Assembly (NCBI GenBank): GCA_022843485.1
Contig: JALHNM010000001.1
Span: 744,001-808,000, forward strand
Source: Fimbriimonadaceae bacterium
GTDB taxonomy: Bacteria; Armatimonadota; Fimbriimonadia; Fimbriimonadales; Fimbriimonadaceae
Direction of reading: 5' to 3'
DNA: 64,000 nucleotides
Shown piece after piece: positions 16,748 to 61,908 of this stretch (position 1 is its first letter; every line of letters starts with the position of its first letter). The translations under genes were made by a program, and so were the position numbers. Under the pieces are notes generated by a model that saw only the letters and a program-made list of their open reading frames with translations, was not told where the DNA came from and did not search any database.

Positions 16748-16789
16748 ACGGCAGGCTTCACTGTACCCCGATTCCCCAGCCGCCGGGGC

Positions 16790-16837
16790 GTAGCACGGGC
16801 TTCTAGCCCGTGGTGTCCCAGGCTTCCAGCCTGGGAC
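16790..16837 (-). repeat. Dual-hairpin 3' element, copy A (downstream of lspA)
   Basis: Two adjacent hairpins follow the lspA stop directly: GTCCCAGGC/GCCTGGGAC and CACGGGC/GCCCGTG, each with a 5-nt loop. The same arrangement occurs after the isomerase gene at 61.8 kb, in the same orientation relative to its upstream gene. It may be a transcript 3'-end structure or a dispersed repeat. Confidence 0.7.
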
Positions 16838-23341: not shown

Positions 23342-23377
23342 TGCCGGTGGGGTTCAAGCGCCCCTGGGGCCTCGTCG

Positions 23378-23471
23378 CCGCAATCCCTCCGCTGGCATGA
23401 CCCAGATCAGGTTCAAGGGGACAGTCCCGTCATTCCGGGATCATCTCAGCCTCACTCGGCACCCCCTGCGG
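23378..23471 (-). promoter_or_regulatory. TPP (THI-box) riboswitch aptamer
   Basis: On the minus strand the RNA has the conserved THI-box order: P1 CCGCA/TGCGG, GGGGTGCC, CTGAGA (23444-23449), the ACCTGATCTGGGT core (23400-23412) and ATGCCAGCGGAGGG (23385-23398). P3-like pairing TCCCGGAATGACGGGA lies between. It is complete by eye and very close to the consensus. The only downstream gene, 86 nt away, is a prepilin-type gene rather than a thiamine gene. Confidence 0.93.
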
Positions 23472-23501
23472 ACACTACGTGTTCTGCCTTAACATACGAC
23501 A

Positions 23502-26316: not shown

Positions 26317-27825
26317 ATGATCGCCCAGGCCCAGACGGCGACCCTTAGCGGGATCGACGCGATCCCCGTCACGGTCGAGGTCGACATCCAGAACGGCGCC
26401 CCGAAGTTCGTCATGGTCGGCCTGCCGGACAAGGCGGTGCAAGAGAGCCAGGATCGGGTGCAGACCGCGATCCGCAACTCCGACCTAAGCTTCCCGTACA
26501 CCAAGATCGTCTGTAACCTGGCCCCGGGGGACGTGCGGAAGGAGGGGCCGTGGCTCGACCTCGCCATCGCAATGGCGATCCTGGCCGCGAGCGGGCAGGT
26601 GCCGATGGCGGGGCTGGACGGGTCGCTGTTCGCGGGCGAGCTGGGTCTGGACGGTGCGCTAAGGCCCATCGACGGGGCGGTGAACCTCGCGTTGCTCTGC
26701 CGGGCCAGGGGGGACAGCCGGCTCATCGTCCCCATCGCGAACGCGGCCGAGGCGGCTGTGACCCCGGAGGTCGAGGTGTACGGGGTGCGGTCGCTCATCG
26801 AGGCGGTCGAACTCTTGAACGGCTCGTTGACCGTCACTCCCTTCCGCCACGCCGACGCGGCCCCACCGCGCATCGAGTACGAGGTCGATTTCGCGGACGT
26901 CAAGGGCCAGACGCACGCGATCCGTGCCCTCGAGATCGCCGCCGCCGGTGGCCACAACGTGATCATGACGGGCCCGCCAGGCTCCGGCAAGACGATGTTG
27001 GCCCGGAGGCTGCCGACGATCTTGCCGCTGCTCACCCTGGACGAGGCCATCGAGGTGACTCGGGTCCACAGCTCGTCCGGGACTCGGAGCGGGCGCGAGG
27101 GGCTGGTTTGGGAGCGGCCGTTCCGCTCGCCGCACCACACGTCGAGCTACGCGGCGGTGGTGGGCGGGGGGAAGACGCCCCGGCCCGGGGAGGTGAGCCT
27201 CGGCCACCTCGGGGTTCTGTTCCTCGACGAGATGCCCGAGTTCGACCGCGACGTCCTGGAGGCCCTCCGCCAGCCGCTCGAGGACGGGGTCGTGACCGTC
27301 TCTCGGGTGACCGCGACCGTGGACTTCCCGGCCGAGTGCATGCTCGTGGGGGCGTTGAACCCCTGCCCGTGCGGCTTCAAGGGCTACCCAGAGGCGAAGT
27401 GTGTGGGGGCGGCCCTGTGCGACCGGTACCTGGCCAAGCTGAGCGGGCCCCTGCTCGACCGCGTCGATCTCCACTTGACCGTCCCCCGCCTCAAGCCCGA
27501 GGAACTGACGGGCAAGCCGACCGGCGAGCCCTCTGCCCGGATCCGCGAACGGGTGAGCAAGGCGCGCGACACGCAGCGGGCGCGGTTCGGCAAGGCCAAG
27601 GTCAACGCGAAGATGACCCCCCGGGAGGTCAAGGAGGGGGTGGCGATGGACGACGACTGCCGGGAGTTCATGAAGCTGGTGGCGGGGCGGTTGAACCTCT
27701 CCGCGCGGGTCTACGACCGGGTGCTCAAGGTTGGGCGCACGATCGCCGACCTCGCGGGGAGCCCGGAGGTCCGCCGCGAGCACCTGGCCGAGGCGGTCCA
27801 GTTTCGTGGTCAGGACGCGGGCTAG
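26317..27825 (+). CDS. YifB/ComM family Mg-chelatase-like AAA+ ATPase
   Basis: The 502-residue protein matches YifB/ComM across its length: N-terminal Lon-protease-like domain (VDIQNGAPKFVMVGLPDKAV), Walker A GPPGSGKT (219-226), Walker B in LFLDEMPEF, the FRSPHHTSSYAAVVGGG segment, and MLVGALNPCPCGFKG. ComM drives branch migration during natural transformation. No other competence gene is visible here. Confidence 0.92.
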   Translation: MIAQAQTATLSGIDAIPVTVEVDIQNGAPKFVMVGLPDKAVQESQDRVQTAIRNSDLSFPYTKIVCNLAPGDVRKEGPWLDLAIAMAILAASGQVPMAGLDGSLFAGELGLDGALRPIDGAVNLALLCRARGDSRLIVPIANAAEAAVTPEVEVYGVRSLIEAVELLNGSLTVTPFRHADAAPPRIEYEVDFADVKGQTHAIRALEIAAAGGHNVIMTGPPGSGKTMLARRLPTILPLLTLDEAIEVTRVHSSSGTRSGREGLVWERPFRSPHHTSSYAAVVGGGKTPRPGEVSLGHLGVLFLDEMPEFDRDVLEALRQPLEDGVVTVSRVTATVDFPAECMLVGALNPCPCGFKGYPEAKCVGAALCDRYLAKLSGPLLDRVDLHLTVPRLKPEELTGKPTGEPSARIRERVSKARDTQRARFGKAKVNAKMTPREVKEGVAMDDDCREFMKLVAGRLNLSARVYDRVLKVGRTIADLAGSPEVRREHLAEAVQFRGQDAG

Positions 27826-27919: not shown

Positions 27920-28312
27920 ATGAACCCATCACAGATCCTCTCGATCCTCCTCCGCCTCGGGGGCGACCTCAGCGACGGCGGCAAGTGGCAGGCCTCGCAC
28001 CGCATCGACGGCGCCCAGACGGCCGAGCGGCCGAAAGTGACGTCGTTCCGGTGCGGGCTGCAGGACGGAAAGCCCTGGCTCGCCTTCGAGTTCACCGAGC
28101 CGGACGGCGCCCACACGCTCCGTGGCGAGGTCAACATCGGCGGCGGCGCGGAGACGATTAAGTACGACGGCCAGGACGTCGATGACGACGACGTGATCCT
28201 GTCCTACCGCCTCCGCGGGGCCCAGATCCGGGGCGTGGTCGAGTTCGAGTTCGTGTCCGGCGGCAAGACCCACCGGTACCGCTTCGACGCCACCGTGGCC
28301 CGGCTCGTCTGA
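27920..28312 (+). CDS. Conserved hypothetical small soluble protein
   Basis: The 130-residue product starts MNPSQILSILLRLGG, has no signal peptide, and is rich in beta-strand pattern (SFRCGLQDGKPWLAFEF, EVNIGGGAETIKYD, GVVEFEFVSGGKTHRYRF). It contains the acidic run DVDDDDV. I do not recognise a family. CAGGAGA upstream supports this start; the longer frame overlaps the YifB gene. Confidence 0.6.
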   Translation: MNPSQILSILLRLGGDLSDGGKWQASHRIDGAQTAERPKVTSFRCGLQDGKPWLAFEFTEPDGAHTLRGEVNIGGGAETIKYDGQDVDDDDVILSYRLRGAQIRGVVEFEFVSGGKTHRYRFDATVARLV

Positions 28313-28355
28313 CGCTCGGCGGGCTCGGGCCAGGGGCGGCCGACCCCTAGTTACC

Positions 28356-28555
28356 CATGCCGCCGCCCTCCGGGCGGTGGCATGCCCGTCCCGGGCATGG
28401 TTTCTCGGGCGTCCCGCCCGAGGGGAAGGCCGTGCCAGGGGCGTCCCCGGCCCCGGTTCCCGGGGCGGCTCGCCCCAACGTATGCTCCCTACCCTCGCCC
28501 TGGCCGCCGGAGCACGGCTCCGGGGTCCGGGGAGCGGGTCGCGGACCCGCGCTCC
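28356..28555. repeat. Array of short hairpins with 3-nt loops
   Basis: At least seven perfect or near-perfect hairpins are packed in 200 bp. Stems: 28356-28384 (13 bp, loop TCC), 28381-28399 (8 bp, TCC), 28404-28422 (8 bp, TCC), 28450-28466 (7 bp, TTC), 28462-28476 (6 bp, GCT), 28507-28523 (7 bp, ACG), 28531-28555 (GCG). Some share an arm with the next. It fills the gap between two same-strand genes. The function is unknown. Confidence 0.75.
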
Positions 28556-28596
28556 GGGTGGGCGTCGCCCTCGGGGGGTACGGGGCCCGGGCGGGG

Positions 28597-28608: not shown

Positions 28609-30414
28609 ATGCCGAAGGGCTGGCTCCCGTTGATCCTGACCGTCTGGAGCCTCACGCCCTCGCTCGCGGCCGACCTGAGGAATCGCGTCGCGCTCGACGA
28701 CCGGGCAGCCACGACCAAGGTCACGAAGACGACCGGGGCCTTGGCCGGTGTCTCGGCGGGAATGCCCCCGGCAGCGCCGCTGAACCGGTTCACCGGGCCC
28801 GACCTCCCGAAGCGCGTCCTGCTCGTGCCGCTCGACGACCGGCCCGCAACGACGCAGTTCACCCAAATGATCGGGGCGCTGGCCGGGGTCTCGGTGGAGA
28901 CGCCCCCGGCCGAGCTGCTCGGCCGGTTCACGCAGCCCGGTCGGCCGGAGGCGATCCTCGCCTGGGTGGAGCCGCGGATCCGAGAGTACGACGCGGTCGT
29001 CCTCAACTCGGACATGGTGGCCTACGGGGGTCTGATCGCGAGCCGGACCGACCGCACCTCGTACAGCCTGGCGATCAAGCGCCTGCGCACCTGGTGGCGC
29101 ATTCGCCGCGAGGCCCCGGACACCGAGGTCTACGCCTTCAGCACGCTCACCCGGTTGGCCCCCACCGCCACCCAGGCGAGCTCGGGCTGGCGGATGGACC
29201 TCGCCCGGTTCGTCGAGCTCCGCGAGCAGTACCGGACGGAGAAGACCCCGGAGCTCGAGAACCGGCTCGTCCGGCTCGCCCAGAAGATCCCGGCCGGGGA
29301 GCTGGGCCGCTACGACCGCATCCGGGACCGGAACCACCGCGTCCAGCGCGAACTGCTGCGGATGACCGCGGCCGGTGCCTTCGACGCGATGAGCCTGGGG
29401 CAAGACGACGCCCGGCCCATCGGGCCCCACGTGCCCGAGACCGCTCGGCTCAAGGCGATGGCCCGCAACCTGGGGATCACCGCCAAGGCCGCGTTCGTCG
29501 AAGGGATCGACCAGATCGGCAACCTGCTGCTGAGCCGGGCGCTGGCCGTCCACGCGGGGTGGCAGCCGGCGGTGCGGGTGGTCTACGCCGACGAGGCAGG
29601 GCGGCAGAAGGTGGCGTTCTACGAGTCCGACACCGTCGACAACAGCCTGCTCGACCAGATCACAGGGAGCGGCGCGCGGGTCGCCCGGCCGGGTGAGGCC
29701 TACGATTACTCGCTCTACGTGAACACCCCGGACCCCCGCGAGTACGCGCTCGACGCCTTTCTCACCTCGATGAAGAGCGAGGTCGACCAGGGGATGCCAG
29801 TGGCCGTGGCGGACGTGAACCTGGGAGGGAGCGGCACCGCCGACCCGAGGGTCTACGACGCCCTCACCGACCAGGGCCGCTCGTCCCGCGTCCTCGCCTA
29901 TGCGGGATGGAACACCGCGGGCAACACGATGGGCACGACCATTCCGGCCGCGAACGTGTACCTGCTCGCCCGGCGGCAGGGCGTCGACCCGGTGCAGCGC
30001 GAAGTCGCCCTGCGGACGTTCATCCTCCACCGGCTCGTCAACGACTTCGAGTACCACCGCTTCGTGCGCCCCCTGGCCTACGGGCTCATCGACCGCACGC
30101 CTGGCGCCAGCCGCGAAGAGACGACCGGCCCGGCCTTCGCGAAGGTGGACGACCTCGTCCGCACCGACCTCGGCGAGCGGCTGGAGCGGCGGTTCCGCGA
30201 GCAGCTCCTGGGCACCAAGTTCTTCGCCGGCCCCCGGCAGTACGAGGTCACGGCGCTGCGCGACGTCGATATCCGATTGCCTTGGCCCCGAGCGTACGAG
30301 GTGAAGCTGGACTTCCGAATCGACGTCTCCCCGGTCGCGCCCGCTGCACAGGCCCCTGCACCCGGCGCCGGTGGTGGAACGTCTGGTAGACAGATGGAGA
30401 CTCCTGGCCGATGA
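28609..30414 (+). CDS. DUF4127 family protein with duplicated N-terminal segment
   Basis: The 601-residue protein has a signal peptide (LPLILTVWSLTPSLAAD) and DUF4127 landmarks: RVLLVPLDDRPATTQF, VVLNSDMVAYGGLIASR, QDDARPIGPH, VVYADEAGRQK, and YAGWNTAGNTMGTTIPAA. The family is of unknown activity. Codons 22-64 (28672-28800) are an in-frame tandem copy of the next 46 codons (28801-28938) lacking three residues and the RP of DDRPATT. The ATG is chosen because the longer upstream frame runs through the hairpin array. It overlaps ruvA (ATGA). Confidence 0.8.
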   Translation: MPKGWLPLILTVWSLTPSLAADLRNRVALDDRAATTKVTKTTGALAGVSAGMPPAAPLNRFTGPDLPKRVLLVPLDDRPATTQFTQMIGALAGVSVETPPAELLGRFTQPGRPEAILAWVEPRIREYDAVVLNSDMVAYGGLIASRTDRTSYSLAIKRLRTWWRIRREAPDTEVYAFSTLTRLAPTATQASSGWRMDLARFVELREQYRTEKTPELENRLVRLAQKIPAGELGRYDRIRDRNHRVQRELLRMTAAGAFDAMSLGQDDARPIGPHVPETARLKAMARNLGITAKAAFVEGIDQIGNLLLSRALAVHAGWQPAVRVVYADEAGRQKVAFYESDTVDNSLLDQITGSGARVARPGEAYDYSLYVNTPDPREYALDAFLTSMKSEVDQGMPVAVADVNLGGSGTADPRVYDALTDQGRSSRVLAYAGWNTAGNTMGTTIPAANVYLLARRQGVDPVQREVALRTFILHRLVNDFEYHRFVRPLAYGLIDRTPGASREETTGPAFAKVDDLVRTDLGERLERRFREQLLGTKFFAGPRQYEVTALRDVDIRLPWPRAYEVKLDFRIDVSPVAPAAQAPAPGAGGGTSGRQMETPGR

Positions 30415-61781: not shown

Positions 61782-61827
61782 CCCAGGCTGGAAGCCTGGG
61801 ACACCACGCCCTGGAAGGACGTGCTAC
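61782..61827 (+). repeat. Dual-hairpin 3' element, copy B
   Basis: CCCAGGC/GCCTGGG and CACGCCC/GGACGTG hairpins follow the isomerase stop by 16 nt. The first hairpin is identical to copy A (16790-16837); the second differs at several stem positions yet still pairs with G-U help. The orientation relative to the upstream gene is the same as for copy A. Confidence 0.7.
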
Positions 61828-61908
61828 GGGGGCGGGAGGTTTTACGGGATAAGACCTCACTAATCAGAGTCGAGAGGGGCTGTACCTTCGGGGCATACTT
61901 CGGGCGCG

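Follow-up and report, generated by a model that had tools for sequence, protein, structure and literature searches.

REP-type palindromes in a Fimbriimonadaceae bacterium: a hairpin array between comM and a DUF4127 gene, and RAYT transposases nested in host genes

Between comM and a DUF4127 gene, the genome of a Fimbriimonadaceae bacterium carries a dense array of small hairpins that is very probably a cluster of REP-type mobile palindromes, accumulated at this site and moved by a transposase of one clade of RAYTs (REP-associated tyrosine transposases). The 47-nt core of the array is present in about 62 copies in the genome, is inserted here relative to a sister species, and occurs as inverted copies on both sides of a RAYT gene. 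The array, studied in a window of 64,000 nucleotides (the whole stretch of DNA that was analysed), is of a known kind, a REP cluster, in a new lineage, and it adds Fimbriimonadaceae-like Armatimonadota to the range of REP/RAYT elements. No paper joining repetitive extragenic palindromic with Armatimonadetes was found in an open-access literature search, subscription papers being outside its scope. If the proposed origin holds, it would explain why hairpins with changing stems and a constant 3-nt loop pile up in gaps between bacterial genes: their reader needs a tag, a loop and pairing, whatever the sequence of the stem. The part most worth following is that of the RAYTs nested in frame in host genes.

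The hairpin array and its site

Seven perfect stems of at least 6 bp with 3-nt loops (TCC, TCC, TCC, TTC, GCT, ACG and GCG) were found at 28340-28570, reproducing exactly the count and the loops of a previous sequence-only reading of this DNA. Its range of 6-13 bp for the stems also holds, the longest being that of hairpin 1 (Table 1), of which the inner 6 bp are perfect and 12 of the 13 pairs are present in the RNA fold. As it had also claimed, neighbouring hairpins have arms in common; the 3' arm of hairpin 1 contains the GTGGC tag of the following unit. The same reading had named shuffled sequences of the same composition as a check, and none of 2000 dinucleotide shuffles of the array stretch reached seven such hairpins (mean 0.35, maximum 4). 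Hairpins with loops of 2, 4, 5, 6, 7 or 8 nt were not detected at 28340-28570 when loops of at least 5 nt with pairing ends were filtered out; without this filter, the 3-nt-loop hairpins of the array were recounted as five 5-nt loops. The rest of the window never contained more than three such hairpins per 200 bp, and in 20 stretches of 20 kb taken systematically from the genome, the peak was four 3-nt-loop hairpins per 200 bp.

The very G+C-rich gap that holds the array follows a 130-aa ORF, which ends at 28312, and runs up to the DUF4127 gene, which starts at 28609. A scan of the array revealed no promoter- or terminator-like site, nor a hairpin followed by a T run as in an intrinsic terminator, in agreement with the earlier statement that this is not a standard terminator. 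The accompanying statement that no gene is present can be accepted, with the reservation that the frame of the DUF4127 gene stays open through the array, as expected at such G+C content. When the whole window was scanned against Rfam, the sole matches to reach threshold were two tRNAs and one TPP riboswitch, so the array falls outside the known Rfam families.

In the sister species (G001), comM and the DUF4127 gene are 28 bp apart, compared with 783 bp in the window, which points to an insertion; the extra sequence of the window consists of the 130-aa ORF and the array. This ORF had no Pfam match and was absent beside DUF4127 in the 10 loci of relatives compared. Judged from this one sister genome, the array would have been inserted in the lineage of the window, with several units accreted. 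A lack of any such structure in relatives had been proposed as grounds for rejecting the array; the site is indeed empty in G001, but this signals a mobile insertion and not an artefact, since the 47-nt unit described below occurs elsewhere in other genera. By eye, the N-terminal part of the DUF4127 gene (window 28609-28940) was also seen to contain a partial self-repeat (LDDRxATT...RFT twice), which is present once in the G001 homologue.

Table 1. Positions of the features discussed (window coordinates unless a genome and contig are given)
Feature	Position	Strand	Remarks
REP unit E	16789..16835	+	R1 63.6 bits; CGTAGC tag, loops TCT/TCC; adjoins tRNA-Pro
TPP riboswitch	23366-23476	-	RF00059, 65.4 bits
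YifB/ComM Mg-chelatase-like ATPase	26317..27825	+	PF01078, TIGR00368; upstream anchor; 78% identical in G001
Orphan 130-aa ORF	27920..28312	+	beside array in extra ~780 bp
Hairpin 1	28356..28384	+	13-bp stem including one G.T pair, loop TCC
REP unit A1	28376..28422	+	R1 65.1 bits; family alignment and covariation
Degenerate A2-like REP unit	28431..28478	+	R1 33.5 bits; whole-genome E = 0.0013
Type B unit	28507..28555	+	R2 79.0 bits (copy in R2 seed)
DUF4127 gene	28609..30414	+	PF13552; downstream anchor; 74% identical in G001
REP unit E	61782..61828	-	R1 62.1 bits
metH RAYT	G000:C2:406305-407026 (L049)
Nested RAYTs with flanking REPs	G005:C1:285490-286212 (L112); G007:C27 (L182); G007:C6:736344-737036 (L113); L223-L302

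The repeat unit, its families and the covariation of its stems

When the array was used as query against the genome to which the window belongs (G000; 2.96 Mb in 20 contigs), about 50 partial matches were obtained, corresponding to two separate pieces of it (window ~28377-28475 and window ~28499-28564). Reading of the copies, together with a scan for pairs of closely spaced hairpins, revealed a unit of 47 nt, in which GTRGC is followed by two hairpins with 3-nt loops, the first with a stem of 7 bp and the second with one of 8 bp, separated by a linker of 5 nt (GGTCC or GGTGT). It starts with six bases ending in GTGGC or GTAGC. As a scan for the 47-nt unit with a loose linker performed no better than shuffling (51 matches in a 400-kb sample compared with 49 after shuffling), covariance models were used instead. 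Model R1, built from a seed alignment of 32 copies that included the A1 unit and both E units of the window, gave 62 matches in the genome at E <= 0.01, or about 62 copies, three of them certain in the window.

Three families share one geometry with different stems: A1 (loops TCC/TCC), A2 (GCC or GCT/GCT) and E (TCC/TCC, tag CGTAGC). The A1 unit of the array consists of the GTGGC tag, ATGCCCG-TCC-CGGGCAT, the linker GGTTT and CTCGGGCG-TCC-CGCCCGAG. In the A2-like unit the first stem is decayed and the tag reads GTGCC, with the hairpin GGGGCG-GCT-CGCCCC intact. The type B unit is a related one of 49 nt, with a 7-bp hairpin with ACG loop, a GGTCC linker and a longer GCG-loop hairpin with a 2-nt bulge. 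Its model, R2, gave 16 matches, which with those of R1 are dispersed over the 2.96 Mb. As nine aligned type B copies have no conserved GTRG tag at the foot, type B is described as REP-like only; a RAYT beside type B units was not seen in anything examined.

Most copies give the impression of being intergenic, as judged from open frames, and the only coding copies found were in metH, carB and an M14 carboxypeptidase gene. Single in-frame units lie in the M14 carboxypeptidase gene (L018, C3:270870) and in carB (L199, C5:160910) of the window's genome. Because the genome is GC-rich, an in-frame test of all 62 units on open frames alone was uninformative except in the M14 carboxypeptidase case. 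A stretch of ~10 kb at G000:C12:19936-29774 (L009) holds 14 R1 units on one strand, mixed with the palindrome family CCCGGCCTGCCCTCCGGGTCAGGCCGGGCCACC. A tandem-repeat reading was rejected, as Tandem Repeats Finder reported no array with a 47-nt unit in this densest cluster.

When at most the best 150 candidates per genome were scored with R1, matches at E <= 0.01 were present in four of 20 relatives: at least 22 in G005, 14 in G007, 5 in G011 and 46 in G014, those of G014 being palindromic tandem arrays partly double-counted across strands. Among the best candidates of the other 16, which include G001 of the same genus, there were no copies. In G014, contigs C11, C67 and C27 (L116, L103 and L118) contain tandem palindromic arrays (GTGGCATCGCCGTCCCGGCGAT...), several of them at contig ends; perhaps these arrays cause assembly breaks.

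To quantify the pairing, 15 proposed pairs were followed in 32 distinct A and E units: 92.3% of the cells formed standard pairs, compared with 69.9% after shuffling, and 98 cells were double-changed, compared with 32.6, whereas all slid versions of the pairing were far worse. Within the A1, A2 and E families, both arms were changed in 48 cells, against 15.1 expected if they were independent, and 43 of these 48 were Watson-Crick (48 of the 53 extracted units were used, five having been dropped for register, and nine of the 62 copies lay outside). The stems of type B covary too. Stem pairs changed by half were almost absent, and the tag and loops are fixed while the stems vary between copies. 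The covariation supports the selection on structure that the sequence-only reading had proposed. Its description of stems that differ within a constant geometry is right on both counts, except that the stems are related to one another, as alternative paired versions of the 47-nt unit and of the related 49-nt unit, both found repeatedly over the genome.

In the accessible part of its description (Di Nocera et al. 2013, PMC3733652), the GTAG-tagged REP superfamily is characterised by a GTRG head, stems of 6-13 bp, 2-3-nt loops in many families, alternative complementary residues in the stems, clusters, intragenic copies and association with RAYTs, all of them features common to the window units. 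Families A and E carry GTGGC or GTAGC, invariant or nearly so, and their stems of 7-8 bp with 3-nt loops correspond to the short GC-rich palindrome of that superfamily (5-13 bp stem, small loop). As far as that account goes, the window units differ in that a fixed unit of 47 nt is made up of two hairpins that point the same way. Classical BIMEs alternate the orientation of their REPs, whereas all the units of the array are on the + strand; inverted unit pairs exist in G005 and G011.

RAYT transposases and the origin of the array

Three Y1 (PF01797) transposase genes are present in the window's genome, each flanked by its own palindrome family, and thus one genome houses three REP/RAYT systems. 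The RAYT on contig C2 is accompanied by A-type units with GCT loops at 406305 (+) and 406980 (-), in inverted orientation. Its HUH and Tyr motifs are intact (NHVH and YIEGNP), and it matches NF047646 (REP-associated tyrosine transposase) with E 3e-21, below the curated cut-off; a carB RAYT of G007 scores above this cut-off. The best PDB match of its predicted fold (pLDDT 92) was 4er8, a RAYT bound to a REP hairpin, and a phmmer search with the RAYT against PDB sequences found nothing. Own repeats inverted on both sides are the arrangement that defines a RAYT in the available text of Nunvar et al. 2010 (PMC2817692). The C2 locus has that of a REPtron, a Y1 gene with HUH and Tyr motifs between two inverted REPs of the same family, and in both cases REP abundance is tied to the RAYT. 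Unlike the REPtron as presented there, REP-RAYT-REP lies here and in many relatives in frame in a host gene and lacks a stop of its own. Y1 transposases were also noted at C6:21695-22021 (L050) and C1:648224-648412 (L051), each with its own unrelated palindrome family.

In G005 and G007, R1 units in opposite orientation lie ~650-675 bp apart around a RAYT, and in G006 a sister RAYT lies amid a dense array of 3-nt-loop hairpins like that of the window. A scan of named genomes with six clade RAYT queries gave 542 loci, of which the best 80, from many phyla, were kept. Among the GTRG hairpins beside these 80, 118 of 146 had 3-nt loops, mostly TCC or TCT, and the nearest locus belonged to a Fimbriimonadaceae bacterium. 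The suggestion of the sequence-only reading that analogues of REP/TnpA-REP be sought was thus correct.

The available part of a study of Stenotrophomonas maltophilia (PMC8266576) reports that TnpA-REP recognises a folded single strand with GTAG, a perfect 8-bp stem and a GCT loop; the first loop base is critical, stem mismatches affect or nearly abolish cutting, and changes in stem sequence have mild effects. For another RAYT in that study, an altered GTAG motif shifted the cutting site predictably. The group 3 REP of S. maltophilia is like the units found here in its 8-bp stem, 3-nt loop and GTAG tag, and its GCT loop recurs in the units that flank the resident RAYT. The S. maltophilia REP, as presented there, is a single hairpin of 23 nt with measured activity, whereas the present units are known from sequence alone, and in the array the loops of the intact A1 unit are TCC instead of GCT. 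As the loops of the resident RAYT's units also differ from those of A1, the A1 unit may have been mobilised by another relative of this RAYT, now absent.

In the most plausible course, the unit would be bound by a RAYT of this clade while folded as a single strand, most likely at the replication fork. The enzyme would read the 3-nt loop together with the GTRG tag, and need a paired stem of no particular sequence. After nicking beside the unit, it would paste the unit elsewhere. This requirement would hold the tag, loop and geometry while stems drift through compensated changes, and repeated insertion beside or into older units would give arrays with shared arms. A constant tag and loop with covarying stems is what is expected if the RAYTs here act like S. 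maltophilia TnpA-REP. Against this reading stand the loop difference between the A1 unit and the units of the resident RAYT, the type B unit, which has no GTRG tag and has ACG and GCG loops, the single strand shared by all the units of the array, unlike in classical BIMEs, and the extra 783 bp, which include the orphan ORF.

An element that acts as RNA, with the hairpins stabilising or terminating a transcript or marking a processing site in it, and with the stems kept paired by RNA-level selection, is unlikely, although the array lies between two genes of the same strand, its + strand folds better than shuffles (z = -3.7, with z = -2.0 for the - strand) and published REPs can act on mRNA, according to the accessible part of PMC3733652. 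That part also reports frequent G.T pairs in stems and takes them to mark RNA function, whereas departures from perfect pairing here were balanced, with 9 G.T and 10 A.C. As RNA of the tag strand would tolerate G.T and not A.C, these small numbers give no sign that one RNA strand was selected. The units also occur in both orientations and within coding genes, the scan of the array found no terminator-like site, and nothing is present at the G001 site.

Slightly less likely still is a clustered regulatory or binding site of the host (for gyrase, an IHF-like or another protein) whose mobility belongs to the past only. A connection with gyrase has been reported for REPs elsewhere (PMC3733652, accessible part), but the lack of copies among the best candidates of 16 of 20 relatives, the same-genus G001 included, means that no general host function is evident.

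The repeated foldback synthesis offered by the sequence-only reading, in which quasi-palindrome correction by template switching matches the arms and makes hairpins with no transposase, proved unnecessary and is very improbable. It would fit the scarcity of half-changed pairs and the shared arms, and such copying of arms may contribute to their matching, but it leaves unexplained the fixed GTRG tag, linker and 7/3/7 + 8/3/8 geometry at dispersed sites and the inverted flanking of RAYTs. Chance in a very G+C-rich gap was refuted and has a negligible probability, as the shuffles never exceeded four hairpins and the units form recognisable families, R1 with its 62 copies among them.

RAYTs nested in frame in host genes

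The C2 RAYT and both of its flanking units form part of a single open frame of 853 aa, in which B12-binding domains are followed by the RAYT and then by the methionine synthase activation domain; in all 10 relatives with the gene, the site of the RAYT in metH is a short linker. In G005 and G007, a REP-flanked RAYT lies in frame in the linker of carB between the ATP-grasp and oligomerisation domains, and G007 has another in a GH38-like gene. When 40 of 47 RAYT matches in 21 genomes were examined, four loci had units of the 8-bp stem and 3-nt loop on both sides (the downstream unit of L113 in G007 was seen by R1 and in the hairpin list and not by the tag finder). These four were the four largest open frames, of at least 800 aa, compared with at most 350 aa for the other loci examined.

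Among the best 80 of the 542 loci of the named-genome scan, 64 had a frame that was not edge-cut, and in 29 of these the open frame extended at least 100 aa on both sides of the RAYT; the set is biased toward nested RAYTs, because four of the six queries were nested. Pfam scans covered 39 frames, with flanks of at least 100 aa or edge-cut. The host domains were those of valyl-tRNA synthetase (nine, two cut), leucyl-tRNA synthetase (five), IspG (four), DNA methylases (four, one cut), DUF5107/TPR (three, one cut), MetH (two, one cut), CarB (two, both cut), DnaE (two, both cut), DUF1156 (two, one cut), radical SAM/DUF4080 (two), and AlaRS, Sua5, a weak UDPGP-like domain and a DEAD helicase (cut), with one each. 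Both HUH and Tyr motifs were present in 36 of the 39; the remaining three had HUH and lacked the exact Tyr motif searched.

Eight of the nine insertions in valyl-tRNA synthetase are at one site before the conserved VATTRPETMLGDTA, and one is elsewhere. As synonymous sites are saturated, dN/dS was replaced by a contrast of pN (0.11-0.32) with pS (about 0.71-0.89) for the RAYTs nested in this enzyme, some pairs of which diverge as slowly as the synthetase itself. These values suggest that nested RAYTs are maintained, although selection before insertion could give an equal signal. Strict monophyly of the nested RAYTs was not supported, as the tree required three changes and placed other RAYTs between them.

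Taken together, we lean towards the view that the clade of RAYTs with 3-nt-loop REPs leads an intein-like life without splicing, in which REP-RAYT-REP, lacking its own stop, would sit in loops or linkers of essential enzymes, be expressed with the host gene, be hard to lose, last long enough to become common to several genera or to decay on site, and seed REP arrays like the present one. With about the same measure of confidence, its hosts would include methionine synthase, carbamoyl-phosphate synthase, valyl-, leucyl- and alanyl-tRNA synthetases, IspG, DnaE, Sua5 and DNA methylases. The likeness to inteins is confined to the in-frame position within essential genes, and no HINT/intein domain was among the Pfam matches of 43 fusion frames (the four and the 39). 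If true, nesting would give a transposase a novel means of ensuring its expression and escaping loss, and some proteins annotated as tRNA synthetases, CarB or MetH would hide a transposase domain.

REPs located within genes, tnpA-REP genes included, are already described (PMC3733652 and PMC6006769, in their accessible parts). In the second of these, on TnpA-Y1 class 2, REP insertions within tnpA-REP genes keep the reading frame, as they do here, and unexpectedly long proteins were discarded as fusions or annotation errors; whole REPtrons nested in host enzymes go unmentioned in its available text. An open-access literature search, with subscription papers outside its scope, found no description of RAYTs nested in frame in host enzymes.

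No RAYT occupies the carB site in 18 of the 21 genomes. In the carB of G002 (L205), a decayed RAYT with the frame kept lies at the linker position used in G005 and G007, which points to a hot spot or to an insertion of some age.
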